A stretch of DNA of 31,082 nt, from the NCBI RefSeq assembly GCF_000003605.2, contig NW_003155740.1, positions 124,649 to 155,730 on the forward strand, given 5' to 3'. Source of the stretch: Saccoglossus kowalevskii (lineage: Eukaryota; Hemichordata; Enteropneusta; Harrimaniidae). The notes beneath the pieces were generated by a model. That model did no database searches. It saw only the letters and a list, made by a program, of their open reading frames with translations, and had not been told where the DNA came from. The position numbers and the translations under genes are program-made. This document shows, one piece after another, positions 2,150 to 29,809 of the stretch (within the stretch, counting starts at the first letter, position 1; every line of letters starts with the position of its first letter).

Positions 2150-2313
2150 GTCTGAAACTGACTTTATTTATGGAACAGGATGAATATCTTGGCATATATG
2201 GACAGTCAGCAGGTGTCAGAGTCACTGTACACGGCAATAATGAAATGCCGTGGCCAGAGGATAGAGGTCTGACAGCCAAGACTGGTGCTGCAACATCTTT
2301 CGCCGTGCAGCAG
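2150..2313 (+). CDS. + channel exon 1 in window: palm/finger strand
   Basis: The acceptor is TTTTTAAG and the donor is CAG/GTAAAT. The exon enters with two bases completing a glycine codon and leaves in phase 0. It encodes LTLFMEQDEYLG and AGVRVTVH, a hallmark DEG/ENaC stretch. Its length (164 nt) and both phases equal those of the - strand exon at 18778-18615. The two peptides agree at about 32 of 55 positions by hand count, so they are paralogous exons. Confidence 0.9.
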
Positions 2314-5300: not shown

Positions 5301-5775
5301 AGGAATCAGAAGCGTACACGGTAAGTGGGTCACTATCTCTGGTTGACTGGCATGGACATACAGTAACTGACTTGAATACCATGTCTATCTAAATTCGATT
5401 TTAGAACTGTACAAAATCCAAAAAACTTACATAGCTTGAATAAAACAGTGAGATGATGCAGACACTAAAAGTGGGAATGCAAATTTCGAATAAATTATTC
5501 GATTTGCCCTATAAACTAAATACACGCAAGTGTGTAAACATCAGTTTTTATTTTGTTTCTATTTCAAACAGAAAGATGACTTGATGAGTGACGTTGGCGG
5601 ATTACTTGGACTTTACATCGGGGTATCGGTCATCACAATCGTAGAATTCATTGTGTATTTGAAAAGCCTTCTAAGATTGATGTTTACCGGGTCTCCGGGC
5701 GACAACACGGTCACTGATGGCACCGATAGAGAAGCGGTTGGTGATGATGACGACATAGCGACATCAGCGCTCTGA
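2150..5775 (+). CDS. DEG/ENaC sodium channel, C-terminal half (7 exons)
   Basis: Exons are 2150-2313, 2455-2541, 3055-3233, 3443-3500, 5062-5132, 5245-5320 and 5572-5775. All have GT-AG borders and matching phases, giving about 213 residues plus stop. The protein runs from the palm/finger segment (LTLFMEQDEYLG, then AGVRVTVH), through the cysteine-rich thumb (CGCTD, CPPQC), to the last palm strand and TM2. TM2 contains GGLLGLYIGVS, with the G-V-S selectivity filter of the family. Channels of this superfamily are trimeric, amiloride-sensitive Na+ channels gated by acid, peptides or mechanical force; which applies here cannot be told. The HG motif and TM1 exons are absent from the window, so the gene is partial at its 5' end. 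The tail ends in S-A-L, which fits a class I PDZ ligand. Family assignment is secure; the subtype is unknown. Confidence 0.92.
2455..2541 (+). CDS. + channel exon 2: finger/thumb segment with YGNC
   Basis: This 87-nt phase 0-0 exon (TTTCAG acceptor, CTG/GTAAGC donor) encodes 29 residues including HPYGNC and FNGKIYSSL. It leads directly into the cysteine-rich thumb exon. No counterpart was found for the - strand gene. Confidence 0.85.
2854..3013 (-). mobile_element. MITE family A, copy 1 (inverted), inside channel intron
   Basis: An element of about 155-160 bp begins near AAAGTGGGGGAGTCG and ends near GCGCAGGTGACACCCC, which are imperfect terminal inverted repeats. Its interior is the reverse complement of copies 2 (6727-6884) and 3 (18440-18597), including the block GGACTCAATTCC. 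It lies in the intron just before the thumb exon and accounts for the upstream extension of the open frame to 2941. There is no transposase, so it is nonautonomous. Confidence 0.8.
3055..3233 (+). CDS. + channel exon 3: cysteine-rich thumb
   Basis: The exon opens after TTTGCAG and ends at TT/GTAAGT. It encodes SCRKMCVQEAMMNYCGC and later LECECPPQC, the conserved thumb cysteines of DEG/ENaC channels. The reading frame stays open upstream to 2941, but that part is transposon-derived intron and should not be read as protein. Confidence 0.92.
3443..3500 (+). CDS. + channel exon 4: post-thumb strand
   Basis: A 58-nt exon completes a Phe codon from exon 3 and encodes EESYDNTVSMSTWPSESSL. It matches the family pattern of Tyr, then Ser, then Trp-Pro after the last thumb cysteine. 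It leaves in phase 0 at CTA/GTAAGT. Confidence 0.88.
3501..5061 (+). other. Long intron of + channel gene with degenerate repeats
   Basis: Between exons 4 and 5 there is no other coding signal. From 3920 to 3990 two copies of an AAAACCCAC(G/C)CCTTGAA motif occur about 48 bp apart. From 4132 to 4220 three copies of GCAAATGT(C/T)AAAAG occur at 30-37 bp spacing. The remainder (4290-5060) shows nothing recognisable. Confidence 0.6.
5062..5132 (+). CDS. + channel exon 5: thumb-to-palm linker
   Basis: A 71-nt exon between CACACAG and CA/GTAAGT encodes GQLLKSLHAINPKAKKITD. The phase (0 in, 2 out) matches both neighbours. The sequence is lysine-rich and the least conserved part of the ectodomain. 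The preceding 1.56-kb intron holds repeats at 3890-4230. Confidence 0.8.
5245..5320 (+). CDS. + channel exon 6: final palm strand
   Basis: A 76-nt exon (TTTGCAG acceptor, ACG/GTAAGT donor) encodes KNLAAISVYFESLSVDMV. The ISVYFESL core is the strand that leads into TM2 in DEG/ENaC channels. Confidence 0.87.
5572..5775 (+). CDS. + channel exon 7: TM2, pore and C-terminus
   Basis: The terminal exon opens after CAAACAG. It encodes the pre-TM2 stretch LMSDVGG with a small residue (Ser) at the degenerin position. The pore helix follows with GLYIGVSVITIVEF, and G-V-S is the selectivity filter. The cytosolic tail is short and acidic (DDDD) and ends TSAL, compatible with PDZ binding. The stop is TGA at 5773-5775. 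Confidence 0.92.
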   Translation, partial: KDDLMSDVGGLLGLYIGVSVITIVEFIVYLKSLLRLMFTGSPGDNTVTDGTDREAVGDDDDIATSAL

Positions 5776-5816: not shown

Positions 5817-6020
5817 ATGATCATTTGATTTCTACATGCTATCATTTGATATCTACATGTTATCATTTGATATTTGCATGTTATCATTTGATTTCTTCAT
5901 GCTATCATTTGATATCTGCATGCTATCATTTGATATTTGCATGTTATCATTTGATTTCGACATGCTATCATTTGATATCTGCATGCTATCATTTGATATT
6001 TGCATGCTATCATTTGATAC
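5817..6020. repeat. 21-bp tandem repeat in 3' UTR, about 9.5 copies
   Basis: The unit CATG(C/T)TATCATTTGAT plus six variable bases repeats every 21 bp, starting about 40 bp after the channel stop codon. Unit endings cycle in groups of three (TTTCNN, ATATCTN, ATATTTG), giving a 63-bp higher-order period over most of the array. Because 21 is a multiple of three, two frames stay open as repetitive peptides. These are not believed to be proteins. Confidence 0.93.
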
Positions 6021-7357: not shown

Positions 7358-8746
7358 ATTGTCTAAAGTTCATTTAGTAACTATGGTGCATAATATTCTA
7401 TGTTTTGATTGAATAAAACCATCATCAGCCGATAATCTAACTATAGAAGGCCCCATGAAAGCGCAAACTTCCAATTACTCAAATTTCTCCATATTATTCC
7501 AAGCGGTCATTTGAAAATTGATAGTTCTGTGTCTGTGTGCCCCCAAAAAACATCAAGTCGCCTTGCTGCACATCCACCCAGCATTCACCAAAATGTATGC
7601 TTAATAATCGAAATTTGTTCACGCTCACGTTGTGCACCCAGACAAGGGCAATACAATACAAAAAACATTCCTACGTGGATATACGAGAAATATGTTTCAT
7701 TATAAAAAGTTTGCTCATTATCGTGAGCATTATTGAATCTACACAGTGCAGTAGACTACAGCTTACACAAGCTGGATCACAAACTCCCACAAACTCCAGT
7801 GACAGTGTTTGTTTGTATTTTTTGTCTAAACCATTAAAGCGCGGTGGTCGTCGCGCAGCGCGTGTTCGAATTCATGTAAATAAACAATATATTTTACACG
7901 CGTTGTATACGTCGCCATGAGTCCCATATCGAACAGGACGCGGCACGACGACTGTCGCCCTTTAAGAATTAGATTACTTACAAGCTTTGGCTGAAAAGTA
8001 TAGAAATCTTTAATTTTGTTTTGAAATGAACTTAAAAAAACACAATATTATACCAAAAAAATGTTGTCAACTATCATCAATTGTACAGCTTCAATGATTT
8101 GTCTGTCAAAGAAATAGTTTCATGATAAAGTGACTGATTTGTATATTCTGTGAATCACTACATGTGTTTATAGCCTGCACTCAGTGTTAAAGGAACCACG
8201 CTTTCCTCACGTATAAACTTTTATTTAGTTTACATTCAGAGTCAACGTGATTTTCAAAATTGTCATTCGGGTTAACATACCTCCAGTGACTCTCTTTGTT
8301 TCACATTTCTTAAACTACCATTTCAGTTATCTTTCCATTTATTAATTATGGAATTTGTTAGATGGTTCAATTAACTGGAATTATTCATCTGTTAAAAAAA
8401 TAATAAATATTATTCACTGCTGCTTACCATTGCAAGTTGCCCCATATTTTTCCAAGGCCAGGTTCCCGGATGTACTGAAATCAGCACGGTAAAATTTCCC
8501 CATATCCAGCTTTTAACACGTGTTCGTGCGTTGTTTTCCTGTTAGCCAATCACAGGTTTGGAATCAACGACACACCGAAATAAAATCCCAGGTGCAACGG
8601 TTACACGTCATCCAGATAATACCATTGCATTCGTTTTTCAACGTCATTTGAAACGTCTTCACTTCACTTAAAGCGAGCGTCTCAGTGTTTCCACAAAACC
8701 CTTTTAAAATTGCGATCAGGAGGTATTATTTTCTGATAAAATCACA

Positions 8747-9584
8747 ATGTCACAGGCTAACTCTAGTGGCAGTGTATTTAATGTACCAGCAATCTTCATA
8801 CCAATGGGCGATTTCAACGAGGGCAATGACAACACAGACGACGAACCAAAAGATGACCAGGGTACAGCTTCATTGGATTCAAGCCTAATGTTTCCTTTGA
8901 TATTTGTCGCGATATTTCTAGTTCTGCTGCTGATTTTTCACTGTGTCGTAGTCTACAAATTCCGATTACGTGCTCGACGAGACAAAGCTATTATTGACCG
9001 TGTGCATGGGCAGCGGTTCATCAGCCGTGGTGTCGATGCACGAAGCTCTACTTGTTCTAATATATTATTGAGTGAGAAGACGGTCAAAAGCTCAACTAAC
9101 AGTATTGACCGTCCCGTTAAATTATCCAATTTGTCTACATTTCCAGAAATCCCACGCTCGTTATTCATTGGCGGTGACGCATGCGTAGTTGCCCACTCCG
9201 ATCCAAATATCATTCACGTACAAACCTACGGGACTTTACGTTCAAACCCCGCGTCGTGGAACGACTACGAAGCGCCTCTTTACACACAGGACGCCCATCG
9301 TACTCTGACCCGTCGATGACCAAGCACTCTGATCTACATACAAATAACAAGCCTTTCTGTGGACAGGAACTTTACAATCCCCACTGTCGTGCCCGTGCAA
9401 AATCATTGGAACTATTCGAAAATAGCCGGACACTATCGCCGAACACTACCAGTCGTTTTGGAACAAATAACACTAGCAGCGTGCCGACTATTTATTATAT
9501 CGAAGACAGCTACAGCCAGAGTGGTAGTCTGACAGTATTCCCAATATTCCATACTTACAGAATATCACATGGAAAAATAATGAG
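8747..9584 (+). CDS. Orphan single-pass membrane protein, exon 1 (frame broken twice)
   Basis: The ATG at 8747 has a good context (ATCACAATG). The first 47 or so residues are acidic and Asn/Asp-rich, with no clear cleavable signal peptide. A strong membrane helix follows (FPLIFVAIFLVLLLIFHCVV), then the basic stop-transfer KFRLRARRDK and a Ser-rich cytoplasmic tail. As written the frame stops at 9317-9319. The neighbouring frame then looks coding to about 9525 (for example PTIYYIEDSYSQSG), and a third frame carries coding-like sequence to the donor at 9584 (SDSIPNIPYLQNITWKNNE). Each switch needs one base added or two removed. Only the third frame joins the next exon correctly. I do not recognise the family. 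Confidence 0.6.
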
Positions 9585-10779
9585 GTATGTACGCCTTGTA
9601 TAAATTATCACGTGTTTAAGGAACTTGATAAACCACAATCCTATGCGATTTGTACTTGAATATATTGATTTGTAAAGGTTTGGTTTGGATTCGCTTCATG
9701 CATCCCGAGAACATGCATTTTTTTTCCAAAAGTTTTTCTATTTGCTTGAACAGAGGCGGCGGCACGAAAGTTTCTAGTTCAAGATGGGGGGGGGGGGGAT
9801 TGCTCACCATCCCTTACCGCGACCTTACTAGGGGGTCTGGGGCATGCTCCCCCTTTAAACTTTTGAAATCTAGACCCTCTGTAACTCTATTTCCTTCATT
9901 TGAGGGGCAAATCTTGCTGACACAAAGAGTTTCAGTTTGATTTTAAAAGGGGCCGCGATGCTCAAACATTTTTGTCGAGGGGGCGACCGCCTCTCTGCCC
10001 CCCATGTGCCACAGTCACTGATGAATCGTTTAATTTGATAAGAGAAAGTAGCAATTTTTGTCAAGAGTAAGCCAAACGTACACTTTTCAACCATACAGAG
10101 CAATTCGTGGATAACTGAGGGAGTACCCATCATCTGGTTGTGTCTTCAACTCGTGATTTCAAATACCTAGAATTTATTCATTTCCCAGTAAACTGTACTT
10201 CCGGAAAATATAAGGTTAGTGACTTAAAAAAAAAGGGGGGGGGGTCACCAGCTTAATTTTTCGAGAAAATAATGGATGTATTTTAGTGGATACTCCATCA
10301 GTAGCAAAGCAGTTCTTTTACTAGAGGTTTCTGTGGCAGAGACTATATATCTTAAATTAGGCATAGACATGATGTGTTTTGTTCTCGATTATTTAAAAAA
10401 TCTGGGTTTTAAAAAGGAGCAAAAAATGCAATTTTTCTCTAACCTTCTGTTTTATATAGCGATAGCAATTTTTTGAAAAATATTAAGACAAGTTTCCTAA
10501 AATAATACACAAAACAGTGCTATTTTATAGTGCCATAATACAAAAGCTTTATTTTTAGATTTTTAGTCAATAAACCAATGAACATTGTCATTATGAGTAG
10601 GCTTCTACCTTAATCAACTTTTTTGCGCATTAGTTAGCTTGAACGACCATTGCTGTGAAATGACATTGTTACAATGTTTTATTTATTTATTTTTATTTTT
10701 TGTTGCCTCCCAGAGTTCATATGTATGTGCTTCAAAATGAACCACTTATTATTAATCTGACCAATTTCTTCTTTTCTAG
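9585..10779 (+). other. Intron of orphan membrane-protein gene with poly-G tracts
   Basis: This 1.2-kb intron runs from GTATGT to TTTTCTAG. It contains a 12-base G run near 9787 and a run of A then about 10 G near 10226-10244. A block around 9828-9855 (GGGGGTCTGGGGCATGCTCC) can fold on itself and looks like a dispersed repeat. No exon is visible. Confidence 0.6.
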
Positions 10780-11103
10780 CTATATTCCCCCGCTGAGTTG
10801 ACATCGGGAGTCAGAGCGCCTCACAACAGTCTAATGATATCGAGCGTGAATACCTCTACATCGCTGGGACCTGGGCTCGATTCTGACTTCGGTGCCAGTG
10901 CTGGGTGCTCCCAACGAATCGTGTCCTCCAACAACAGCATTACGACATCGGAGGATAGCCGTCATAGAAAACCACAGAGCGACGTCGCTACTCTTACGCC
11001 CACTGATTGGCATAACGCGACACCTTATTACACAGACCACCAATATGGCTACGTTGACGGGCACTCTATCCCAGTACTCGAAAGAGCACAGCACTGGGTA
11101 TGA
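10780..11103 (+). CDS. Orphan membrane protein, exon 2 (cytoplasmic tail and stop)
   Basis: The acceptor is TTCTTTTCTAG. The frame opens LYSPAELTSGVRAPHNSL and continues for 107 residues of Ser/Thr/His/Tyr-rich low-order sequence (for example TPYYTDHQYGYVDGHS) to TGA at 11101-11103. This composition resembles the tail in exon 1. The phase (0) fits only the third frame at the end of exon 1. CTGG/GTATGA at 11099 could act as a donor that removes the stop, in which case the exon at 12277 would follow in frame. Confidence 0.65.
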   Translation, partial: LYSPAELTSGVRAPHNSLMISSVNTSTSLGPGLDSDFGASAGCSQRIVSSNNSITTSEDSRHRKPQSDVATLTPTDWHNATPYYTDHQYGYVDGHSIPVLERAQHWV

Positions 11104-11393
11104 ATTCGGGTGCAATTTATTTATTCTTAAACGTCCATATTTTATAAAAATATAGTACACAGGATACAAGGTTTACTTTATAACCCATCCTGCAGTGAAG
11201 GGAAGCAGTGCCCCGCTTTCAGGTATTACAATAGTATTTCAGAAGATTCGTCAAATTACTGTTTCTGCTACATGACCGTTCAATATAAAAATGTATTTAT
11301 GTGTGTAAGCTTATGTATTCTGAGTGTCTTTGTATATAAATATATAATTTTATTTTTGTTGTAAATTTAAAAAAAATGTGACGTGTGCGATGT

Positions 11394-12453: not shown

Positions 12454-12774
12454 CACAACAAATAACGGCCTATTTTTTACAGTGTGAACACAGCTTACTA
12501 TTCCAGTATTCTGCATTAGAAGATTAGATTGCTCCTTATGAATACCATGCATAATAAATTACAGGAATATTTAAATAAGGTCATTCCACATGCGTTATAT
12601 ATACACGTTTTTTTATGCCATGAATCAAACAAATGAGTTGGTAACTTTAATGAACATAAATAACTGTAAGATACATGTACGGATAAATACACACGTGAAT
12701 ACATTTATCTATCTAGTCTGAATGTGCAACTGAGGCGGTCGACTTGCTCGCTTCCTGTATATTGTTTTATGCAG

Positions 12775-12889
12775 ACACAATCTTATTACGTCGAAAAGAA
12801 AGTCGAACGATTCAAATATAGTTATCGTTGATATTCCGATGTACAGACCTAGAAGACCGCCGATGTCACTGGCCAGGTCTTCCTCCTAA
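12775..12889 (+). CDS. Possible terminal exon of orphan gene, long form
   Basis: After TTTTATGCAG one frame reads HNLITSKRKSNDSNIVIV and PMYRPRRPPMSLARSSS, then TAA. An AATAAA follows at 12916-12921. The composition is coding-like, but the entry phase (needing two carried bases) does not match the only visible donor of the exon at 12277. Either another exon or an indel is missing, or this is not an exon. Confidence 0.3.
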
Positions 12890-15800: not shown

Positions 15801-18217
15801 AATTATGCACAATTTTGTCAAATTATGCACACGAGTGTTGTCATTATTCTAGCGTTTAAATACTCTATAGCATTAATGTTGAGCATGCATAAAATATGGA
15901 AATTACCAGAATAGGTAAGCCCAGTAGCGCATTGGCGACCATCTTGGATTTAAGCTAATTACCGATTTTCTCTAAAACAACCTTCAATCTGTGACCCCAG
16001 AAAAGAAAAGAAATACCCTACACAAATGAATTGACCAATGGGCGTTCTAGAATGTTCGTGGTGTTCGTAACTTAGTTATGGCGTGGTCTATGGTATAAAA
16101 GTTCACCAATTTACAACTAACGCCACACCACGTTAGCTATAATTAAAGTTCCTACCTGATAGGCCGGTACCTCCGATACACGTTGAACAGATAGACTTTC
16201 AAAATAAACAGCAATACTCGCAAGATTTTGTCTGTAATTGAAGATTTATTGAATTACCGCGTATCCAAGCAAAGGTGACGATCAAAAGGACCCCTTGTTG
16301 TGGAGTGAAGGTTTCCACTCTAAATAACGTAAAATAAGTAAGCGTTCGCTAGTGTAATTTCCGTTTGGAACGGGAGGAGGTTTTTTGACAACACATGTTA
16401 TGGATTCATCAGATAGTAATTAAAGCACGACGTAATTAATTATCGTATTATACTTAATACGATGAAATTCGAATCGCATGTATTTGTAACACTGAAGTGC
16501 ATCGTTATACTTACGTAGCACTCTGGAGATTTGTTATACTTTTTGTTTTGGGGTTGATGGAATGAATATTTTTTAGTAGTTGGGCCTATGAAAGAAACAA
16601 AAAAAAAATCATTCACAACACGTCGTGTGGCAACAAAGGTATAAATACGCATGCGTACATCTGCAAATAGACGAAATAGTCATACATACCAGGTACATTT
16701 CAGACGGCCATGTTGAATGCGATATTGTTTTTGCGTAGGTAATTTCACTGTAATATCAAAACAAAGCAATAAATGCTCCTGTTAGTAATCGAACAGCTTT
16801 TCTTTTTATTTCTTTTCTTTTTTAATTTTTTTAATTATATATTTCAATTTTCTGACTGTGAAAGACCAAAGGTCTAAACAAACTACATAGAGAATTCAAA
16901 TAATAAGACTAGTCAACCAATCATTGAAGGCCTTGCATACAGTAATTATTCCGATTGGTTATTGAAGTTTGGGCAAAACCAATAGAATTTAAACAGCAGA
17001 ACGTTAATAAGGTGCTGACAACTACACTTCTGATAAACATGGATCTTACATGGATTAATATAGGGGTAAATGAAATTCGAATAGTGGCGAGAAAACGTAT
17101 GCTTGAAGTTCATAAGACGTGGTTTTAGTTTCCAATGGCGCTCACGAAAGCTGAGAGTTTCATTAACATATTTGTTCTATGCATGACGGAAAGCATTACT
17201 CAAAACACGTTGAATTTGCATGCACTTACTTGCACGATAGTTTGCATTCATCACATGGTAATTGAGATGACTCGTGGAGGAAATGGATCAGTTGGCGACA
17301 CATTTCTGATGAGAAAATCACAACATATAAACAAGCGCGGGTCTTACTTTGCTAGGATTGGAGAAATGTAAACACTAGATGTGCTTTTTTTCTATCAATA
17401 CAGTATAATATTTCATTATTACATATATATGTACCGCAGTTTACTTTGCAAACAAGCAAAGAAAAACACACAAAAAACAACAATAATAACAAAACTTAAT
17501 CCAGTTTATTTGGTGTTTGTGTAGTTTTCCACGAGATAACTTCATACATACGTTGAAAATTCTTCATAATTAATATTATAGAACACCGGAAACAACAAAA
17601 ATTGGTTATATATAATATGAACGTTTGTGATAGCTATGACATGTCTGACGACCCATACTATCAATGGCGATACACAAAATAGTATGTTATTTAATGACAG
17701 ATATGCAAATCACACGAGCCAAAAGCGCTCGTGAATTGTTTATATGCACATACTCAGATTCAATAAACGTGGTTTCCATTTCAAAGGGATTTGTAAACAG
17801 TTTGCCTACCCTGAGTCTTATTCAACATAAGACAACGAGGCGATCCGGCGAATGTATCAAGACATCCACAGTAGATGTACATATATTTATGCAGACAATC
17901 TACTTGGCATTCCTGTAAAAAAAACAACGCAATTTGATAATTCACAAGTTACACAAATGCACTTCAGCCGATCTGCGATTACTTGAACGTTAATAACGAA
18001 ATGCCACATTGAATGTACGACCACCATTTGGTATCAGGTGTTTCACAACCCATTGTGATTGACCACTCACCTTTCTAGAATAAAGAAACCCTTCATCGTC
18101 AGGAACATTGGGTTTGCAGTCTTGGCCATATGGTGTTTGCAAACGGTGTGCTACGGACTAAAACGTGTAATAAAATGTATAGTAATTGTATTATATCGTG
18201 TCGGTTCATTGCAAGTA
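12890..18217. other. Long intergenic region without recognisable genes
   Basis: All open frames are short and lack domains. I looked for the missing downstream exons of the - strand channel (YGNC, CGC, GGLLGL and CPPQC equivalents) and found none. Visible structure includes a perfect hairpin at 13846-13873 (CTTTATGGACT, 6-base loop). ATTGAAATTATGCAAAT is repeated near 14868 and 15222. A degenerate duplication (TTGGCG(G/A)CCAT) occurs at 15722 and 15938. A TATAAAA plus AATAAA pair lies at 16094 and 16203. It resembles decayed repeat-rich spacer. Confidence 0.6.
16080..16210 (+). promoter_or_regulatory. TATA box with downstream AATAAA, LTR-like fragment
   Basis: GGTATAAAAG at 16092-16101 is followed about 105 bp later by AATAAA (16203-16208). 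No open reading frame begins nearby. The pairing is what a retrotransposon LTR would show, but its ends could not be found. Confidence 0.2.
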
Positions 18218-18614: not shown

Positions 18615-18778
18615 TTTTTTAATGGCAAATGATGTCACCGAACCCGTCTTTGCCGTCATGCCCTCCTCTTCAGGTGATGGAACTTCCATGGGCTGGTGGA
18701 TAACGATACGCACACCAGACTCTTGTCCATACATGCCCAGGTATTCTTCTTGTTCCGTGAACACTGTTAATAACAGTC
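18615..18778 (-). CDS. - channel exon: palm/finger strand (last found)
   Basis: A 164-nt exon opens after CTACGCAG with two bases completing Gly and ends AAA/GTGGGT in phase 0. It encodes [18 protein letters not shown] and [10 protein letters not shown], the paralogue of the exon at 2150-2313. Downstream in the gene direction come 17 intron bases and then MITE copy 3. No later channel exon was found. Confidence 0.9.
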
Positions 18779-21700
18779 CTGCGTAGAAATAATTGCAAAC
18801 ATTTGATTCTGGATGTTAATAAACAATCTCCAATAATTGTAATAAGAACAATATACATTGACGAGTTGAACTCACCAGAACCGCCACCAGATCGAGTTGA
18901 TTTTTTCTGTTCGTGTAGATCAGCGTTGAAAATAAAGCAGTTACCGTAATGTTCATTCGGTATTGTAACAAAGTCTCTGCAAGAATTAAAGGAAAATAAA
19001 TATATCTAAACGTAGAATATGTGGGAAATGTTAAGGACCTGGGTCAATTTGTATCTTTAGCTAGAAATATACGCCAAAATTGGACCTATATCGAGCCTTG
19101 CACATTTGGATGCTCCTACACATGTTAAAACAGACCTTGAAGGGAAAAAAATCGATTGTGTCGATAAACAAGCTTGAAAATCTTTGCTGTGACTTCATGG
19201 ACAGTTTCTAGGAGTTAATTGTTTTCAAAATACAAGGTCTTTAACAAAAAATAACGTATACTTATTGTCGTAGGATTAACACAAAATTTTCACAACTTTA
19301 AGGTGACAATGAGAGGAACTTGAATGTGTCCAGACAAACTATTTCGTGGATTATTTACCAACGTGTTGTAGTTTGAGTTGGGGGGCAATGCGACTAAAAC
19401 GGAAATTAAAATTCAGCACACTACTTTTTAAAACGCATTGCTTGAATAAAACTGACCAGACACATTCAATTTACCAGACTATTGAACAAACTAGGAAAAG
19501 TGAAAAACTAATTTCTTATCACCAGCATAAATGCGTAATTATTTTTTTTTACATAAAAAGTAATTTTTTACCTTTGATTGAGTAACGCGTCGTAGAATGC
19601 AGATACGGGCATGAAAAAATATACATTTGAAAAGCTTGAAGTCTGGCGATTCCAAAAATATATACTTTCCTGGATCTGTTTGTAGTCATTTAGTCATAAT
19701 TAGAAGATGAAAACAAGTATGTAAATAATAGTCTCGCTACCTCAAATGTTTAGCGCCAAAAGAGAAGAGCCAGCCAATGCCCAGTAAGCCAGTTTCATAA
19801 TCATATTTCAAAATTAGATTACACTTTAACTTTAAAATCAGGTATACTTTGTACATAAGTTTTAGTCGAAATAAAAACTACAATAAACATTAGTTTAGGT
19901 AAATAGTACTGTAGTTCTCTTAACTCGGAATATAATAAACATATCGATTACCCCGGGTCACACGGTGCACCATTGAAAGTACATTGCAGAATGAAATCTT
20001 CAAATTGGTGCCCGTATTCGCGGATTTCTTCTGCTGTCAGTTTTAACACATTTCTAAGATCACTGTAGTCTGGAGTCGAGCTGAATGTTACGAAGTCCTT
20101 CCAATCTGCTGGATCTTCTCGCCCCACTCTATCGAAACCGGGATTTGTGTAGTAATATTCCTGGAACTCATCAAATAGCTGTTCAGAGTCTTCAGTAATA
20201 TCCAAGTACTCATCCTGCCAACCTTCATGAAATGGACTAGCAATCTCTGCCGATTCTATAAAATGAACATGTGAAATAACTGATGCTAGTTTTATTTAAT
20301 TAAACATCGCTATCATTTTGTCAAACGAGTCTCGTCTCCCATTACTAACAGAACGTATTCAAATACAACAAATCTCTGACAATTTGAAGAAAACAAACAC
20401 TATCAGTTTGTCAACGGCCCAAAAAAAGAGAAAACAGCTGGTGAACAGATATTATTAACAAACATGTATTGACAATTACTATTGTTTTACCTAAACATGT
20501 TAATTTAGAGGAAACAAATATCAACAACATTGTTTCCATTTTGTGTGTTCTAAATAAATATTAGATTGTTTTTTTGACAACAGAAAGCGATCGATATATA
20601 TTATTATATGTACATTTTGAAAAGAAATGATACTTAATACTAAAATTTGAGAACTTATTTCTCAAAAGATATATTTAAAACGTTACAGACTTCGCCGTCA
20701 ACAAAATCGCATCTCAGAGGTTGGTTCAGTCCTATTGTATATGTATTTAAAAGTTACCTACCAGTATGTACACATAATGGCCAATACTCATCTTCGCCTT
20801 GGTCACACTCTTGTTCATTGTTACAGTATCGAATACTTTCAATGCAATATCCACTGCGACATTTAAAAAAACCACTGGGACATTCGCCATCATTGCCAAC
20901 AACCACTAGAATCAAACCAGATATTTTACGGTCATTTGTAGTTTACTCACAAAAAAACATCAGGCCAATGTGACAGAATCTATTAGAAGATATTTACATT
21001 TTTATCTAGGAAAATCATTGTTGTCTGTATATTCAGGACGGGGAATTATGTATATTCATGAGCAAAAATGGCATATTATGGTTCGATACTCTTTTATATA
21101 ATTGATTTCAATCAATTTGGTCACAAGAATGTTATGGTCATAAACACGTGACCATCGTCTCCTACCTTGTTTTCCAACACAGATCCCACAGCTTAATTGG
21201 CACCTTGATTTCATAAACAAAGAATTCTGGGAACATTCACCTTGTGCTGCCCAATAGGGACATGCCTCATAATTATCTACACAATCTAGAAAATATAAAA
21301 TGTAACAGTTAAGCATGTTAACATGTGAACTTATGATATGTATTGGCATTATCAGTCTGAACGCCGACCGCCATTTGTATATGTGTCATTCGAACGTTTA
21401 ACACCTGGTGGTAATTTCCTGGAAAACACCTGCCATTATTTAAATATAAAAATGCAACCATCATCAATCCAAAAAATCCAACACCAGAAAACATATGATA
21501 AGCACAGATACACAATGCAGTTTTTTTTTAACACACACTTTTCTGCTTCTAGTTTAAAATTTTACTTACGGACATCGGTGCAGTTTGCTTCCTCGTCGCT
21601 TTTATCTATACAGTCAGTGTATCCATTGCACACCTTCCAATTGTCAATACATTGACCATTATTACACGAAAATTCCGCATTTTCACAGTGATCTGGAGAA

Positions 21701-24700
21701 AACAACATATCACTGATATTGTCTGTAGAGACGATCATTCAACTTAATATGTAAATTAACTTCAATTTATATCGTTTTCGAGCAGACACAGAACAACAAC
21801 GCTTACTATGGATACACTGTACTTCGTCACTTCCGTCACCACAGTCATCTACCCAATCACAGACCTTCTTTTTGATGATGCATTTTTTGTTATCACACGC
21901 ATATTCCCATTCCTGGCATTTCCCTGAATACACCGATTGAAATATAAAAGCACGAACATGAGACGAAATATTGTAATGCAATATATCAATTACTGTCAAT
22001 AATTGGCGCAATAACTACAGAGTGGAAACCGATATTGTTTTAATTGACTAATCTCTAGGCACTCTAGTAGCTTGTTGAACTCCTTGTTTTTGTTACTTCT
22101 TGATTGGTGAATCGCTTGCCATATAACAGGTTAACAAATAAAGAACAAGGCTAATTGAAATTTAGAATTCGGAAACTACTATTAATAGTTATCTATGGCA
22201 TTTCGTGAAGGTGTGTAATGGGTATCATTACGATATGAGAGTTATAATAACGAGATTTCCATGACAGAAGTGAGGTGGTAATAAATGCTGCACAAAATAT
22301 TATCTCACGATATCGACAGCCGACTTCATCCATCTTGTCCTTGCAGTCTGTCTTGTAATCACACCTGTGGATATTAGGATGACAGATTCCCATGTCACAT
22401 CGAAATCCTTGTTGACAAGCATCATCATTGATATCACGTCGCTGTGTATTCCCTGTAGTAAAAAAAACCATACATTTACGTCACTGATAGTGTTTGCGTG
22501 AAATCACACTGGTGAATATTAATATGGTCAACTGTAACAGTAGCCATATGCTCTTTTTCTGTGAGGTATTTAATTTTCCATTACAATTAACGTACATTTG
22601 CTAAAATGTGTCTAGTCAGCAAGTAGTTATGAATAGAACAGACTGACAATCAAACTGAACGATAGAGAAAGAATAGTCAAGGCCTCAGCTTGGATTTATT
22701 TTTTACACAGTTTAGTGAGTTTTTTGTTAACAGTAGGGAACACGTGTTTTCTGACATTAATATTTATTATTATACATCTGTCACTGTAACGCTATAGGTT
22801 ACAGCATGCCGTAATGCCGTAATTCTGCGGTATTTCACGAGGTATTATCATCCTACCATATAAAGAAATGCGAATTCCAAATATTGAATGATTACGCGCG
22901 TAAGCGTTCTCTAATAATAAACAAAAAACATGGCTGCCACCTGGGTTTGATCGGACTCCGCACAAAGAAGTTCGCTTATTCTGTTCCAAACTTTTTTAGA
23001 TTTCGGCATTACCATGATGTATCCTTGGTAGGAAAAGATGTATAATAATAAGGTTAATACGAAGATACCTCAAAGTATGAACCCAGATAGTACGCTGTTG
23101 CATCCGACCTCCGCTGCGCGTCAGTCGATATTTCTGTTGTACTGTCTACAATGCATACTTTGAGGTGTTCTCGTAATAACTTCATATTATAGAAACAGTT
23201 CACAAGGTAACAGATACTATTTTACCCAGGCCAATTTAACATTACTGAAAACTAAATGTGAATATTCAAAACATACCGCACATTTCAGGATTTTCATCTT
23301 CCCTCTGTGCGTCAATGCAGTCGTCAATACCATCGCATACCTTGCTAGCATCTACACATATTCCATAGAATCCCCCTTTGCTGCACTTAAACTCTCCTTC
23401 GCTGCATATAAAGAGACCTACGCGAACAATAAACAGAAATGATTTACAGAGTCGTATTGCCCAGACTTCAGAACACAAAGAGCGTTTGCTTGTGATACTG
23501 TACCATACTAAATTAAACTCCGATCTTAAAAGGCGCAACTAATGTGTAACATCGCTGATATGTTTTGAGGTCGCAATTCCACCTTGGTTAATATGTTTTT
23601 GAAAAAATGGATATATAACCATCCAAACTTACTGTAGTCACAGCCGAACTCGTCACTAGCATCCGGGCAACTGATTTCGCCGTCACACACACCATAGGAT
23701 TTGATACAGTTGATCTGATCGTTGCACAGAAAGTCACCATGTAAACACGGAACTGAAACATACAACGCCATCACACTCACTGAAATTAAATTGATTATCT
23801 CCTACCTTTTGTACTTTTTACTTATTACATTCTGTGTTAGATAATTTATGAAACCGCAGTACACAACCATCAACAAGTCTTGAAATATGAATACATGTTG
23901 TAGCGTATCAGACGATTAAATATATTAAAAAGTTACAGTCGTCGCACATTTCGTTCTGATTTTGTGTAAGCAAACAATGTATTTCCCAAGCATTGGGTCG
24001 AAATCTAACACGACAGGGAACAAGAACTGCAGGGTTTTAAGCAGTTTCAAAAATAATTTGTCTGCCACTAATATAGTTCTTTGAATCGAGAATATATAAC
24101 CAAACTTACCATAATATGGAAAGACCTGAGCTTCTTTCATTATCGCCACCAACGGTGAATATTTGCTTCGTGCCAATGCCGATGACCGCACTTTGTTCGT
24201 ATTGCACACTGTAACTGCTGGAAAAAGCAATACTGACTCGGGCAACTCTTCTACTTTGATGAGTATTGGATAATTAAAGAAACGCTTTATAACCAGCGAC
24301 AGCTGTGCAGTTACGAGGATAATCGCGATGACAAGGAGCACTGTCCAGAATATTCGGGAACATGCTTGATTGGCGCGGGCTATCTGAGGCAGTCCGTGCC
24401 AAGATGTTTGAGTGAAGAAATTGCGAGTAATATCCGAGCATGTCGGGGAGTCATCGGTGTTTTCTAGAGTACGTGCTTCTAAGTTAGGATCGTTATCATA
24501 TCCGATTGGCAATACGCTGCCGTCATTCCCGAAACGTTCAATGGACCAGTCAATGGATGACACGACATCATGACCTGTCATCTCCCTGTTGGATAGATGA
24601 CAAAACAGTAAATGAAATATTTAGTTTTGTCTTAAGATGCAATTGCCAAAATAAACTGTGAGTATGAATAACTGAGCCGTATGTTAACAACAGAGAAACG

Positions 24701-27700
24701 TGATCACAAATAATAGTACCTAGACGAGAATCATTGATACAAGTTCTTTGCGAAATTCCGAGAACACAAATCGAGTGACAACAAACAAATTACATTGTAA
24801 CCTCAATATAACACCGTTATAATGAACTTCCTGATATAATGAACACATAACGTGTCTCCCGCTCACAACAAACCCAATGTATTATGTGCTTCATTATAGT
24901 GAACATTTCACTATAACAAACTAATTGTATGTCCCCCAAAGAGTTTGTTATAACGAGGCTACAGTGCACTGACAATCTTATCACAACAATCAGTCAAATC
25001 AGAGAGAAAAAAGATACATGGACCTTAACACAACGCATTTGTAAAAACTATTGTTTAAATGAGACTATGGCGGAAAGAAAGATATTTTAATATTGCGCTG
25101 TACTCACCGCATACACAAATCATCACTATCCCCGCTTTTAACGGTAGTACACTGTAGAATATATACATAAATAAATAAATAAATAAATAAATAAATATGA
25201 TGATGATAATGATGATGGAAAAAGTTGATTTTAGGTCAACACTTGATTTTGTAAATATATTATAATCGTCAAATTATCTTAATTTCAATTCTGGTTATGT
25301 ATATGCCCAAAAACATATGAGACTTGCTGTCGTTTTGATATATAATTCGAATTTTGTATTGACGATTAATGAAATAATACGAAAGTTCCTGGACCATGAT
25401 GTTATAAGCTCATTTTCATTTTGTACTGCACAATATTTCAGCACCAATTAGTTGTAACATCAGAGGATACATATCATTACAATTGGATAGTGAATATGAT
25501 GAAATTAGCATATCATGCATGCCTAGCAACGTGGAATTGAGTTTAACCACATGCTTTTTAAACAGTGTTTTTTAATGTATTGTTATCTTTGGATCTTTTT
25601 TTTTTTTTTATAAAAGTATGAACAGGAATATCAGAGTTGGCAACTTTGAGCATGTTCGGGAAAGAACGGTTAATTATACGAACATCGATTATTACCGTTC
25701 GGATTTTCTCGGGTTTCCACAGTGTACAAAGCCTCTGTCGGACAAACTGTCTTCTTTTGTACACGACAATTACAAAACAAACAAAAACAAAAATAAAAAC
25801 TTCCCCCGCAATTATGGCTGATCCTGAAAAAATTAAACAAAACTGTTAATAGTTCCAAGACGACATTAGCCTGATTACGTATGACAACAAAATCAACAGA
25901 TATTGTGTAGTCCTAACTCCTATGTGATTTAGTATCACCTAATGTATTATCAATAATATATGCACAAAAATATATCCCGGATGTCGACCAATTTATGATT
26001 ATGATTACTGTTCGAAATGAATATCCAACTTATTGAGAGTGCATTTTAGTTATAGCTGTATTTTCGCAATTTGTGCAAAATATGATATATAATTAAATAA
26101 ATTATGTATTAATACACATGTTATTTACCATATGTATAACTGTGGATTTATAATAACCATTATCATAAACAAAATACAAATACAAAATACAAACGATCGG
26201 TATTATTATTTGGTGTAGTGACATATATATAAGCCGTATTTAAAGTAAAATGTATTACTTATGTGCAATATTGCCTAAATATTACATGAAAATTATAACA
26301 AGCGTGGGATAAATATTATTGAAGGAAATTGTATGTTGTGTCAGAATTCCCACAACAGTTTATTGTTTTTAATTGGTTTCGTTCGCATATAGATATGTTC
26401 GCGCAATCATTTTGTCGATGAGAGAGAGAGAATAATCCCCTATTATTTCCCTAAATATTACCACGGTATTCGTTCGTATTATTGATTTAATATTGTTCAA
26501 TTGTGATTCAGTGCTTTCTTGAATTTCACATATTGTTATTGTGTTTACTCAATTATTTGTCTTTATTACATGTTCAACTTTTCTCTTATTAACCAATCAT
26601 GGTTCATAGCAAATGAACCAATCAGCACCAAGCCAGCTAAAATTGTTTGCGGTTGCTGATCTTACCAAGGCTATAAAAGGCCTGAATACTAGTTTTAGCG
26701 CGCGAGTACTTGTAGTGACGAGTTAATAAAAGAGGTTATTTGATATCGTTTATTTGTTTACTATTTCCTTGATTAACAGTCCCTTGTCCCACGCACCATA
26801 AAGTTTACGCTCGTTAGGGTTGAGATAAGTGTGAAACCCTTTTTCCAGGTTCTCCCTACACATTTAAACATGGTAATATATGCCATACATTTCAGCCATT
26901 ATGTGTTATATTCGCTGGACTTGACCAAAACAATAACATTCCCAACGATCATCTCTTAAGCCACTTATTCGTGTTCGATGTCCATTGGAACATCATGAAA
27001 CACAATTAAGTTATTATTATTATTCATTGTATGTTTAGAAAATCAACTGACTTAATAAAAAATAATTTACCGATATTCCATGCACAGTTTGTCCAAAACC
27101 AAAGACCTTGACAATTGCAAATATAAGCTGTACAGTCCGTATCATCAGGAATACATGTTCCACCATTTAAACAGGGCGCAAAGTCACATAGAGAGGTATC
27201 TGTCGATCAAAATGAGAATATAGATAAACCATATTGTACCGCATATTCCATCAAACGAAAATATTTAAAAAAATGTTCGGGTACGGAATAAAACACACAA
27301 TATGAATACATGGATATGGTGTTGTGAACGTTTGGTCAAGCTTTATGTGTTTTTTCCGGATTCTTCTAGACTATACATTGCCCAATAGTATATATCAGCC
27401 TATGACAATTGGTTTTCAATTAGCGATATGTAACATGAGTCTTTCCTGCTAATTTAGAGGATATTTATATGGTATTGGTTATGTATGTTCGCTTTCGTAT
27501 TACGAATATACATCGTCTTGATTCGAGTTGCTGTTCCGCCTTGTCGTTGCTGTCCCCTGTCTTTACAAGAACCAGTACCTCACATATAAGTAAGAACTTG
27601 AGATCGTTATTCTACACACTATTATATGTTCATTGCCAAAGCAATGCTGGCACGAATATGTAACCAGTTATATAGAATATATGAAAAGAAACATTAGAAC

Positions 27701-29809
27701 CTGATTTGTTTTTGTATTTGTAATCGAAGTGTTTTTAAGATTGCCTAAGCTATTATGATATGTGTATTAGTATATATACACATCAAGATGATCGTAAACT
27801 TACAATTGCTGCAGTGTTCTCCAGCATAACATTGCCCACACTGACATGTGTAATCAACACAGGAGTCGTTCATTGCAACACACTTCCCATCGTTAAGACA
27901 TGGGTTTGGGCTGCAAGGGTTAACCTCTGTAAAAAAATAGAATTGTGTAATTATATATGTCTATATCAAATGTCACAAAGTTTATATTTTATGAAACATT
28001 ACTTTATATTATGTATTTATAGTATTATGTAGAAGTTTGACCTGAAAGATCGAATAAAAAGACCTACCTTGGTGGCACACATCTCCTGTAATACACTCTG
28101 GACATTCACACGTGTATTCTGAACATGAGTTATTGGTTGGATGACACGTTCCGTTATTGCGACAAGGATTGTCTAATTGGCATACGTCTTCAATGTCTGA
28201 TAAAACAAAAGGAAAAAACGATCAAAGTCGGCTTTATTCGTATTAAAGACTAACAACTATGCAATTATATAAAAAAATATGTGTTATAATTGAAATACAT
28301 ACTTTAATGTTTGTATATATACATTTATTTGTATATGAATGTTTTAAATACTAGTGGCAGCAGCTGTCCACGACTTTTATAGCTTTATACGTCATAACCA
28401 ATGTTGCACCTAATATATTATACGTATTTATCTGTTTATGTGTTAAAACAGGTTGAACCTAATTTATAACTGAATCTCATTCATTGTACGTGATTTCAGT
28501 GTTATGTGTTATATCTTTCATCTCACGGATTTCGAATGCGACAACTCACATATTATTCTGCAAACAGTATTAGTAGCAATTGCTTTAAACCACCATCGAC
28601 AAGATATTTCTTATTTGTAATTTGTTATATTGTATAGAATGGTCTTGTTGTAAGCTCGTGAATAAAAAACACACACACTATACTACAATTTAGATTATAA
28701 TATGTTTGATATTCGCTCTTCCATGAAATCGTCATTATATTTAAGCATAGGTATGGTCACTGCAAGACTATGTAGTACATAAGTAGAACCGACTAAGTCT
28801 GACAAAATAATTGTTCTGAATCAGAATTTGTTTGATGTGGTAAGCTTAGTTGGATTTGTGTTTATTTGTGTTTGTTAGTTGGTTTTTCATTCATGTCAAA
28901 TGATTTCATCACATGTTTCAAACCTAAACATTGTGGTTGAATTTTGTTGTCAGTATTGTACAGAAAGTAAACTTACAAGTTTCACAGTTTCTGCCATTGT
29001 AACATTCGGGACATATGCATGTATACTGGAAACAGGAGCGTCCTTGTTGTGCGCATATTCCACCATTGCACGGATTTGGGTCACATGGTTTCAACACTAC
29101 AATTGAAACAATATTATTTCTCATAACACGACCATGGTGCATATCATTGACAGTTGTGACGTTTAGCGTGACATATCACTGCTAATACAATAAACGTCAC
29201 GATGTTCACATTACGTCATCATTTTATGAGTGTTCGGACAATAGGCGGAAAAAAACGTACGACGTTTCCGTATTTATCGCTGCGATATAAAACACTTCAG
29301 AACTGGATAACAACTCACATGGTGCAATAACAGTAAATCATTAATAATAATGGCGACTGACAATTTTATTTTGATAAACAATATTGCTGCCGATTTAAAA
29401 AAAAAAACGTCGACGACCTTACTTGCCAATGCATAATTATTAGGATTCATTTTTGTCGTTCCGTAATACTACGATTTCTCTGTCTTTTTGACACTCGCAA
29501 CTTACATTGCTCACAGTAGCGGCCAGTATAACAGTCCGGACAGATGCACGTCTCACTGCAAAACAGGTCATCTCTCTCGCACGTACCAGGCCAGCAAGGG
29601 TTAGGATTGCAGGGATCATAACCTGTTCGAATGTTAAAATATGAGCCATTTAAATCTGTTTAGCGTTTCAACCAAACCTTACAAACTAATGCTAATATGA
29701 ACAGAATATAATCTACAAATCACCCTACCAGTCTTCATATCATATTTGGTCAAGACAAACACATATTCAGCAGTTTCGTCAACTTCAAACATTTTAGCGA
29801 AAAAGTTAT
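18615..29809 (-). CDS. EGF-TM / DEG-ENaC channel with LDLa and ShKT insert (19 exons)
   Basis: Exons (high to low): 29809-29729, 29622-29506, 29096-28977, 28196-28068, 27926-27804, 27199-27071, 25823-25696, 25151-25108, 24585-24110, 23752-23633, 23417-23277, 22452-22309, 21923-21807, 21692-21570, 21285-21166, 20905-20762, 20255-19952, 18976-18876, 18778-18615. Every junction is GT-AG and keeps one frame open for about 940 codons. Domain order is unknown segment, five EGF-like, membrane helix, linker, HG motif, TM1, five LDLa, ShKT, LDLa, channel palm/finger. The topology is consistent (EGF outside, linker inside, LDLa outside). The 5' end lies beyond the window. Thumb and TM2 exons are not found, so the channel lacks its pore as annotated. 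The join at 25696-25108-24585 is the weak point: these may be two adjacent genes. The channel part (24585 downward) is secure. Confidence 0.6.
18876..18976 (-). CDS. - channel exon: YGNC finger segment
   Basis: A 101-nt exon (TTCTTGCAG acceptor, G/GTGAGT donor) encodes [18 protein letters not shown] followed by a Gly/Ser/Lys-rich loop. HYGNCFIFN is a strongly conserved DEG/ENaC ectodomain motif. It is separated by only 97 bp from the next exon. Confidence 0.92.
18977..19951 (-). other. Intron of - channel gene
   Basis: This 975-bp AT-rich intron lies between exons J and K of the channel. No exon or named repeat was identified. Confidence 0.6.
19952..20255 (-). CDS. - channel exon: finger domain core
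   Basis: A 304-nt exon resumes the channel ectodomain after the inserted modules. It begins with an acidic, Tyr-rich stretch ([11 protein letters not shown]) and ends with [16 protein letters not shown] then [26 protein letters not shown] is diagnostic of DEG/ENaC proteins. Phase is 1 in and 2 out. Confidence 0.93.
20762..20905 (-). CDS. LDLa domain 6 exon of - channel
   Basis: A phase 1-1 exon of 144 nt encodes one LDL-receptor class A module with six cysteines ([16 protein letters not shown], then [19 protein letters not shown]). The calcium-box acidic residues are partly kept. It lies after the ShKT exon. Confidence 0.85.
21166..21285 (-). CDS. ShKT domain exon of - channel
   Basis: A phase 1-1 exon of 120 nt encodes [17 protein letters not shown] then CQLSCGIC. 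The six cysteines follow the ShKT order C-x6-C-x8-C-x10-C-x3-C-x2-C. ShKT modules occur in many animal extracellular proteins, often with proteases or ion channels. Here it is one module in a larger receptor-like ectodomain. Confidence 0.9.
21570..21692 (-). CDS. LDLa domain 5 exon of - channel
   Basis: A phase 1-1 exon of 123 nt encodes [20 protein letters not shown] and [17 protein letters not shown]. All six cysteines and the D..SDE calcium-binding pattern are present. Confidence 0.93.
21807..21923 (-). CDS. LDLa domain 4 exon of - channel
   Basis: A phase 1-1 exon of 117 nt encodes [20 protein letters not shown] and [16 protein letters not shown]. It is a complete, canonical LDLa module with DGSDE. 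Confidence 0.93.
22309..22452 (-). CDS. LDLa domain 3 exon of - channel
   Basis: A phase 1-1 exon of 144 nt encodes [19 protein letters not shown] and [16 protein letters not shown] after a short hydrophilic spacer. Six cysteines are present; MDE replaces the usual SDE. Confidence 0.9.
23041..23190. mobile_element. Foldback element C in intron between LDLa 2 and LDLa 3
   Basis: The left arm (23041-23079, ending ACCTCAAAGTATG) and right arm (23154-23190, starting CATACTTTGAGGT) are imperfect inverted repeats of about 38 bp around a 74-bp CpG-richer loop. The innermost 13 bases pair perfectly. There is no coding capacity and one copy in this window. Confidence 0.65.
23277..23417 (-). CDS. LDLa domain 2 exon of - channel
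   Basis: A phase 1-1 exon of 141 nt encodes [19 protein letters not shown] and [20 protein letters not shown]. This is a divergent LDLa module with a longer loop and no SDE, so calcium binding may be weakened. Confidence 0.88.
23633..23752 (-). CDS. LDLa domain 1 exon of - channel
   Basis: A phase 1-1 exon of 120 nt encodes [17 protein letters not shown] and [16 protein letters not shown]. It is a canonical LDLa module joined directly to the end of the TM1 exon. Confidence 0.93.
24110..24585 (-). CDS. - channel exon: cytosolic N-terminus, HG motif, TM1
   Basis: The exon opens after CCAACAG with GGAG, then ATG at 24581, and ends TATG/GTAAGT in phase 1. The conserved gating motif appears in [18 protein letters not shown]1 is [20 protein letters not shown], followed by the extracellular [15 protein letters not shown], the family's FPAVTICN box. 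If the channel is a separate gene, translation may start at this ATG or at an ATG two codons earlier, in the preceding 44-nt exon. The preceding frame is also open through that exon. Confidence 0.94.
24793..24966 (+). mobile_element. pogo/Tigger-like MITE, copy 2
   Basis: Closely matches copy 1 (18218-18395), with a 5-bp deletion near the left end. It starts CATTGTAACCTCAATATAA and ends GAGGCTACAGTG. TA precedes it; the right TA is not preserved. It lies in the intron between the linker exon and the TM1 exon. Confidence 0.82.
25108..25151 (-). CDS. Small linker exon between EGF-TM and channel exons
   Basis: A 44-nt segment lies between TTCTACAG and CG/GTGAGT. In phase 0 it encodes [12 protein letters not shown], then completes an Arg codon with the next exon (REMTGHDVV). 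The entry phase matches the donor at 25696 and the exit phase matches 24585. It could instead be the first coding or untranslated exon of a separate channel gene. Its short length makes it the least certain exon. Confidence 0.5.
25160..25215. repeat. AAAT microsatellite
   Basis: A run of seven AAAT units is followed by GATGATGATAATGATGATGG. It is an intronic simple repeat. Confidence 0.9.
25696..25823 (-). CDS. Membrane-helix exon after EGF domains
   Basis: Opens after TTTTTTCAG with two bases completing Gly, matching the exit phase of the fifth EGF exon. It encodes [20 protein letters not shown] then the basic stop-transfer KRRQFVRQR and [12 protein letters not shown]. The EGF array is thus membrane-anchored with a cytosolic C-terminal side. 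A donor (ACG/GTAATA) at 25696 joins in phase to the linker exon. If it is not used, the frame runs on to a stop at 25558 through a lysine-rich stretch that looks intronic. Confidence 0.7.
25824..27070 (-). other. Intron between EGF 5 and membrane-helix exon
   Basis: This 1.25-kb AT-rich intron contains an LTR-like promoter fragment on the + strand (26590-26730). No exon was identified on the - strand. Confidence 0.55.
26590..26735 (+). promoter_or_regulatory. CCAAT/TATA promoter with close AATAAA, LTR-like
   Basis: Two CCAAT boxes (26593 and 26618), a canonical CTATAAAAGG (26671-26680) and AATAAA (26725-26730) lie within 140 bp. No open frame follows. A TATA box some 50 bp ahead of a poly(A) signal is the U3-R layout of a retrotransposon LTR. 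A possible 5' end is TGTTGTGTCAG near 26334; the 3' end is unclear. Confidence 0.35.
27071..27199 (-). CDS. EGF-like domain 5 exon
   Basis: A phase 1-1 exon of 129 nt encodes [19 protein letters not shown] and [17 protein letters not shown]. It follows the spacing of the other repeats but has lost the seventh cysteine (QG in its place). It is the repeat nearest the membrane. Confidence 0.82.
27804..27926 (-). CDS. EGF-like domain 4 exon
   Basis: A phase 1-1 exon of 123 nt encodes [19 protein letters not shown] and [17 protein letters not shown]. It has eight cysteines instead of the usual six. Confidence 0.88.
28068..28196 (-). CDS. EGF-like domain 3 exon
   Basis: A phase 1-1 exon of 129 nt encodes [20 protein letters not shown] and [17 protein letters not shown]. 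It has eight cysteines. NGT and NNS offer N-glycosylation sequons. Confidence 0.88.
28197..28976 (-). other. Intron between EGF 2 and EGF 3
   Basis: A 780-bp AT-rich intron with a short CA repeat near 28669. No exon or element was identified. Confidence 0.55.
28977..29096 (-). CDS. EGF-like domain 2 exon
   Basis: A phase 1-1 exon of 120 nt encodes [18 protein letters not shown] and [17 protein letters not shown]. It has eight cysteines, with the G-x-x-C close of EGF modules. Confidence 0.9.
29506..29622 (-). CDS. EGF-like domain 1 exon
   Basis: A phase 1-1 exon of 117 nt encodes [18 protein letters not shown] and [16 protein letters not shown]. It has eight cysteines. It joins in phase to the exon at 29809-29729. 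Confidence 0.9.
29729..29809 (-). CDS. Upstream exon of EGF gene, unknown domain
   Basis: An 81-nt phase 1-1 segment between TTGAATAG and G/GTAGGG encodes [18 protein letters not shown] then LTKYDMKT. It contains no cysteine. It looks like the end of an extracellular beta-rich domain whose remainder would lie beyond the right edge, but the family is not recognisable. Confidence 0.5.

Follow-up and report, generated by a model that had tools for sequence, protein, structure and literature searches.

The window, as we call the whole stretch of DNA analysed here, covers positions 124,649-155,730 of Saccoglossus kowalevskii contig NW_003155740.1 (31,082 nt; C4507:124649-155730) in assembly GCF_000003605.2, which comprises 572 Mb in 4830 contigs. 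Its GC content is 36%, and its genes point to intron-rich animal DNA. One minus-strand gene, running from upstream of 29622 down to 12709, very probably encodes a predicted three-pass subunit of the DEG/ENaC channel family, and the C-terminal half of a paralogous channel lies on the plus strand. The original prediction had threaded 19 minus-strand exons with GT-AG borders in one open frame through 18615-29809. All of them could be placed and the stretch holds real exons, but the gene continues beyond it: seven more exons (18157-12709), found by comparison with the plus-strand paralog at 2150-5775, complete the channel and supply its stop codon. From the first EGF module to the stop, the joined frame counts 1129 codons with no internal stop; the channel part counted from the ATG at 24581 has 865 aa. 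The exons of the gene, followed by the plus-strand paralog and by the second paralog used for comparison throughout (P2), are as follows.

29729-29809, minus strand: possible upstream exon, the first of the original prediction; phase 1-1, acceptor 4.6, donor 6.7; doubtful
29506-29622, minus strand: EGF-like module 1; 8 Cys, phase 1-1
28977-29096, minus strand: EGF-like module 2; 8 Cys, phase 1-1
28068-28196, minus strand: EGF-like module 3; 8 Cys, phase 1-1
27804-27926, minus strand: EGF-like module 4; 8 Cys, phase 1-1
27071-27199, minus strand: EGF-like module 5; 7 Cys (7 also in P2), phase 1-1
25696-25823, minus strand: extra membrane-helix (TM) exon; phase 1-0, helix followed by KRRQFVRQR
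25108-25151, minus strand: linker exon, 44 nt; phase 0-2
24110-24585, minus strand: channel N-terminus with HG motif and TM1; phase 2-1, Pfam ASC 1-87, E 2.4e-20
23633-23752, minus strand: LDLa module 1; phase 1-1
23277-23417, minus strand: LDLa module 2; phase 1-1
22309-22452, minus strand: LDLa module 3; phase 1-1
21807-21923, minus strand: LDLa module 4; phase 1-1
21570-21692, minus strand: LDLa module 5; phase 1-1
21166-21285, minus strand: ShK domain; phase 1-1, Pfam ShK E 1e-08 and 3.7e-07
20762-20905, minus strand: LDLa module 6; phase 1-1
19952-20255, minus strand: ectodomain resumes, finger region; 59.6% identity to P2 over 94 positions, ASIC1 alignment restarts inside
18876-18976, minus strand: channel ectodomain exon
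18615-18778, minus strand: channel ectodomain exon; Pfam ASC 202-262
18071-18157, minus strand: channel exon with the PYGQDC stretch; weak acceptor (-0.58), absent from the original prediction
17810-17912, minus strand: channel exon
17230-17305, minus strand: channel exon
16690-16747, minus strand: channel exon
16515-16585, minus strand: channel exon
16156-16231, minus strand: channel exon
12709-12885, minus strand: TM2 with its GIS filter (GxS type), followed by the cytosolic tail and the stop codon
2150-5775, plus strand: 7 exons forming the C-terminal half of a paralogous channel, whose preceding part falls outside the window
C4507:603300-633299, minus strand: paralog P2 (locus L014, extended); no N, 0.46 Mb from the window gene

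The exon at 18157-18071 measures 87 nt and equals the plus-strand paralog exon 2455-2541 in length and place. Over the aligned part of the two window channels 129 of 268 residues are identical, and because pN is 0.38 against a pS of 0.84, both channels look constrained on this comparison. The window also holds several other elements. Open frames at 8708-11155 (plus strand), between the two channels, contain a membrane helix and a long polar tail, with no Pfam match over the cut-off. Two copies of a repeat on the minus strand, 24969-24820 and 18398-18249, are 88% identical over 50 codons, one of them in the linker-channel intron; the repeat presumably resembles a small DNA transposon. The segment 18589-18447 (minus strand) was rejected as an exon, being a repeat with copies near 2864-3012 (plus strand) and 6862-6737 (minus strand); this family, 76-85% identical in DNA, occupies neighbouring introns of both window channels. 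A tandem repeat with a 21-base unit in 9.5 copies lies at 5820-6019.

We analysed the channel part with the LDLa and ShK exons left out. A conserved-domain search, which had been proposed as a check on the original prediction, gave a match to Pfam ASC over positions 1-455 of 455 in a single stretch (E 4.3e-88), and likewise confirmed the inserted modules as LDLa (Ldl_recept_a, six stretches, E 1.3e-38) and ShK (E 3.7e-07). The HG motif stands ahead of the first pore helix (TSWHGLPQI in the window gene, TTWHGLPNI in P2), TM1 and TM2 flank a Cys-rich ectodomain by hydropathy (the TM2 stretch scoring lower, 1.46), and the filter stretch in TM2 reads GLYIGIS in the window gene and GLYIGVS in P2, which we take to be of the GxS kind. 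When the query also omitted the exon at 18157-18071, the matches in the PDB included ASIC1 (127 bits), an FMRFamide-gated Na+ channel (122), ASIC5 (120) and ENaC beta (108).

Members of the family are described, in the excerpts of one account that we drew on (PMC11750451), with two transmembrane domains and intracellular termini. The window gene shares with ASIC1, FaNaC and ENaC the complete ASC core, with the HG motif, TM1, the Cys-rich ectodomain and TM2 with its filter, but adds an N-terminal helix and an EGF array, and six LDLa modules and one ShK module after TM1. Because the extra TM exon (25823-25696) joins the channel in frame, the chain departs from the two-helix description, and we assign the core to DEG/ENaC but treat the entire chain as a variant. 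The best reading of the sequence is thus a DEG/ENaC core within what would be a new architecture of that family.

All seven exons of the LDLa/ShK insertion have phase 1-1 and follow TM1, ahead of the remaining ectodomain. The insertion site falls between ASC profile positions of about 89 and 128, corresponding to ASIC1 residues of about 108 and 161, in the finger. The P2 insertion gave five Ldl_recept_a stretches; its ShK exon has six Cys, and no match to the ShK profile was listed there at E 0.01. LDLa modules after TM1 were also found in two apparently non-fused channels of the genome (on C958 and C3898), the LDLa repeat of the former with a Pfam E of 1e-08. The positions noted for such modules in apparently non-fused channels are as follows.

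L029 and L027, oriented about 9305-9628 and 9764-9877: LDLa modules that follow the TM1 exon immediately

The C958 and C3898 channels have an in-frame Met, and no EGF match occurs in the ~9 kb upstream of them; the distribution of the LDLa insertion thus extends beyond that of the EGF fusion. In a tree of the channel exon these two loci sit in a different clade from the window gene and P2.

The EGF modules have 8, 8, 8, 8 and 7 Cys, and the counts in P2 are identical; the 8-Cys modules perhaps have one extra disulfide each. They reach 17.1 bits with the Pfam EGF profile, which describes six Cys and has a cut-off of 21.5, and the best PDB match of the array (phmmer) is Delta-like 1 (E 5.7e-23). 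The array resembles Delta-like 1 and Notch in its tandem EGF modules and differs in that the modules have 8 Cys (7 in the last) and score under the Pfam cut-off. The extra helix reaches a Kyte-Doolittle value of 2.98 over 19 aa, and a basic stretch follows it, KRRQFVRQR in the window gene and RKRRKKKK in P2. The first exon of the original prediction (29809-29729) can be placed and is the sole 1-1 candidate in the 1.4 kb upstream, but its coding score of -0.145 makes it doubtful. A signal peptide and the true 5' end of the gene were not found in the window sequence. At 30522-30444 (minus strand) there is a possible signal-peptide exon (MVVPLITFLIIAQN...) with a phase 1 exit and a weak donor (3.4).

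For the join between the EGF part and the channel, we ranked all AG-GT pairs lying 20-250 nt apart in the gap, with the frame ignored. By splice strength alone the linker ranks first of 555 pairs; its score was reached in 7 of 1000 shuffles of the gap, in 4 of 179 overlapping non-coding chunks (all with an equal score) and in 0 of 71 minus-strand chunks. The donor of the TM exon is weak (score 5.0, above only 3 of 21 reference donors), and at that score 77 of 200 gap shuffles could be threaded too. Threading by itself therefore carries little information, and the argument of the original prediction from one threadable frame gains its weight from the strength of the linker sites and above all from the same join in P2.

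Several features of the window locus would fit shorter products. Read through its donor, the TM exon meets its first stop at 25556, after 45 open codons; 428 of 10454 non-coding positions stay open as long. Read-through of the linker meets a TGA stop at 25106, with an ATTAAA at 25091. The channel exon has an in-frame ATG 4 nt from its acceptor (24581), and a further one closes the linker. With the window locus taken alone, two tandem genes would be a likelier reading than a fusion: one for an EGF protein that crosses the membrane once and stops at 25556 or 25106, the other for a channel that begins with the ATG at 24581 or with the one closing the linker, the two perhaps co-transcribed. Such an arrangement has a precedent in Drosophila, where, according to the passages of PMC2827562 considered, llz (ppk25) lies <100 bp downstream of CheB42a, a gene for an extracellular partner, and is co-transcribed with it. 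Separate or shorter products of the window gene are also possible, because of the weak TM donor, the open read-throughs and the internal ATGs.

The paralog P2 has the same order of elements: at least five EGF modules, TM, a short linker, the channel N-terminus, five LDLa, ShK, one LDLa and the channel up to its stop. Its frame runs uninterrupted for 1147 aa from EGF 1 to the stop and is 45.6% identical to that of the window gene over 1117 aligned positions; its channel matches Pfam ASC in two stretches (E 1.4e-81). At the join, which was read by eye and scored afterwards, the TM exon has 146 nt (1-0), the linker 59 nt (0-2) and the channel exon 440 nt (2-1), with all six splice scores between 7.0 and 9.6. 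The P2 channel exon lies at C4507:614330-613891, and the P2 counterpart of exon 27199-27071 at C4507:615219-615094. The join that the original prediction had drawn from the EGF array through a membrane-helix exon and a 44-nt linker to the channel recurs with the same phases, 1-0, 0-2 and 2-1, at a second locus. The remaining P2 borders were placed with the phases of the window gene imposed and so give no independent test of phase; the TM2 exon was placed separately from them.

The TM and channel exons of P2 lie 502 nt apart, the two introns measuring 93 and 350 nt, and within this interval the linker is again first in rank, of 190 AG-GT pairs (20-250 nt apart). Both linkers, chosen as top by splice strength, also have the right phase and an open frame. 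Among overlapping non-coding segments, 17 of 221 and 18 of 153 had a top pair with the right phase and an open frame, and the score was reached in 3 and 11; an equal score together with phase and open frame occurred in 0/221 and 0/153 segments and in 0/500 and 1/500 shuffles. A blastn comparison of the TM-to-channel intervals of the window gene and P2 gave nothing noteworthy, the best hit spanning 12 bases (E 0.097), and the match of the joins is therefore not a relic of a recent duplication. The EGF, LDLa/ShK and channel modules of the two genes have pN < pS, with pS near saturation. Fewer residues are kept at the join: the TM exon is weakly conserved (12 of 41) and the linker nearly unconserved (2 of 14). 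In a FastTree tree built on this channel exon from 21 genes of the genome, the window gene and P2 form one clade (support 0.98), adjoining two C3229 loci.

With P2 included, the two-tandem-gene alternative that accompanied the original prediction becomes very improbable. Were the two parts separate genes, a start exon would have to lie in the 502-nt gap of P2, whose linker and channel exon have no in-frame Met upstream of HG; a search of the gap for a separate start exon (ATG, donor of at least 3, right exit phase) turned up nothing beyond two pieces, of one and three codons, with weak donors (4.0 and 3.0). An in-frame Met before HG was present at 19 of the 20 fetched channel loci (these Mets being unverified as starts) and missing only in P2, and the phases match across the join. 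The P2 interval has a single AATAAA, which falls within the TM exon, and the window gap has none, although chance absence of this signal is common in about 1 kb and hence carries little weight. The tail up to 25556, which the two-gene reading would take as the end of an EGF protein, has a score typical of non-coding DNA, equalled or exceeded by 78% of open non-coding segments. A related proposal, which overlaps with the best explanation, is one gene with several products: the three-pass form, a free EGF-TM protein and a channel started from an internal ATG. We consider it rather unlikely, if distinctly more plausible than two genes. The signals for short forms are all present in the window gene; P2 has no internal ATG, and its read-throughs stop 13 codons past the TM donor or immediately past the linker. 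Short forms are therefore not a conserved feature. An assembly artefact, in turn, is exceedingly improbable: the assembly is fragmented into the 4830 contigs given above and is unchecked against reads, but the same order stands at two loci 0.46 Mb apart, with coding sequence 45.6% identical and join DNA unlike outside the exons.

The EGF-TM-DEG/ENaC fusion, raised as a possibility in the original prediction, is supported because P2 repeats the exon order, the phases and the join, with no Met before HG and a gap of 502 nt. As gene structure it consists of an EGF array, a helix, a basic stretch, a linker and a complete channel core with an LDLa/ShK insertion.

At least 93 exon-level ASC matches occur genome-wide, a large expansion of the DEG/ENaC family with a cluster on C3473. 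From these we fetched 20 loci around N-terminal ASC matches, the window's own excluded; at least 12 further N-terminal matches were left out. EGF exons upstream on the same strand (E <= 1e-3) were found at 1 of the 20, namely P2. Stretches of N in 11 of the 20 make the absence of EGF exons there inconclusive, and among the fully readable loci the count is 1 of 9, again P2. One of the C3229 loci, C3229b (L032, free of N), has an in-frame Met; upstream it carries a TM2-like piece of another channel in place of EGF exons. Upstream of the plus-strand paralog we found two further modules.

L009:6476-6958, plus strand: fn3 module; Pfam E 2.7e-08
L009:7614-7787, plus strand: EGF-like module, after the fn3; tblastn E 0.001

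These are possibly the N-terminal part of the plus-strand paralog. In P2 there are likewise a stretch resembling fn3 (E 1.6e-04, under the Pfam cut-off) and two phase 1-1 EGF exons far upstream, and the two genes may share an fn3-EGF beginning, with an 8-kb gap in P2.

Relatives of the gene were found neither in the viral contigs nor in the genome contigs of the collections searched. In the Thermotoga maritima control genome the ASC profile scored above the cut-off, an odd match for a family regarded as animal-specific. In the literature searched, whose coverage leaves out most subscription papers, no title or beginning of an abstract named an EGF- or LDLa-bearing DEG/ENaC. The portions of PMC9822975 and PMC4224354 that were covered had no match to the terms sought, the EGF passages returned from PMC10507113 concerned EGFP, and the excerpts of PMC11750451 mention no LDL, finger domain or insertion.

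Three known systems offer partial parallels. ENaC subunits carry, according to excerpts of PMC10178586, the GRIP, a stretch of 20-40 residues with protease sites in the finger, between alpha1 and alpha2. The modules of the window gene are likewise inserted in the finger, at what would be an equivalent site, but comprise seven disulfide-rich modules, one exon each. In C. elegans, loss of MEC-9, a separate protein with EGF and Kunitz domains, disrupts the distribution and currents of the MEC-4 channel, as stated in the available passages of PMC6499529. The parallel is an EGF-bearing extracellular protein in the service of a DEG/ENaC channel; in the window gene, in contrast, EGF modules and channel belong to one chain, which would make it a covalent form of such a pairing. 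CheB42a and llz are two unfused proteins, and no EGF domains are mentioned for them in the passages of that source considered.

In the architecture that we propose, the EGF array would be extracellular. The basic stretch (KRRQFVRQR or RKRRKKKK) would stop transfer after the first helix, and this helix would return the chain to the cytosol before the HG motif, so that TM1 would keep its usual orientation. Three subunits of this kind would form a trimeric Na+ pore. The EGF and LDLa/ShK arms would most likely bind matrix or neighbouring cells and would tether the channel, probably relaying force or the binding of ligands to the finger domains, which control the gate.

The phase 1-1 modules document exon shuffling into an ion channel, and the apparently non-fused LDLa-bearing channels of the same genome are possible intermediates. 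How extracellular tethers convey force or ligand binding to DEG/ENaC channels is a long-standing question. For MEC-9/MEC-4 and CheB42a/llz, partner and channel are separate, whereas here the arm and the pore lie in one chain; a single gene for both makes the coupling of the tether testable, as the arm can be removed or shortened. We put forward, tentatively and as less probable than not, that these genes represent a self-tethered DEG/ENaC subfamily, in which an EGF (perhaps also fn3) ectodomain anchored by its own helix would pull on, or report to, the pore of the same chain, and which would unite the link and a touch- or adhesion-gated channel in one gene.
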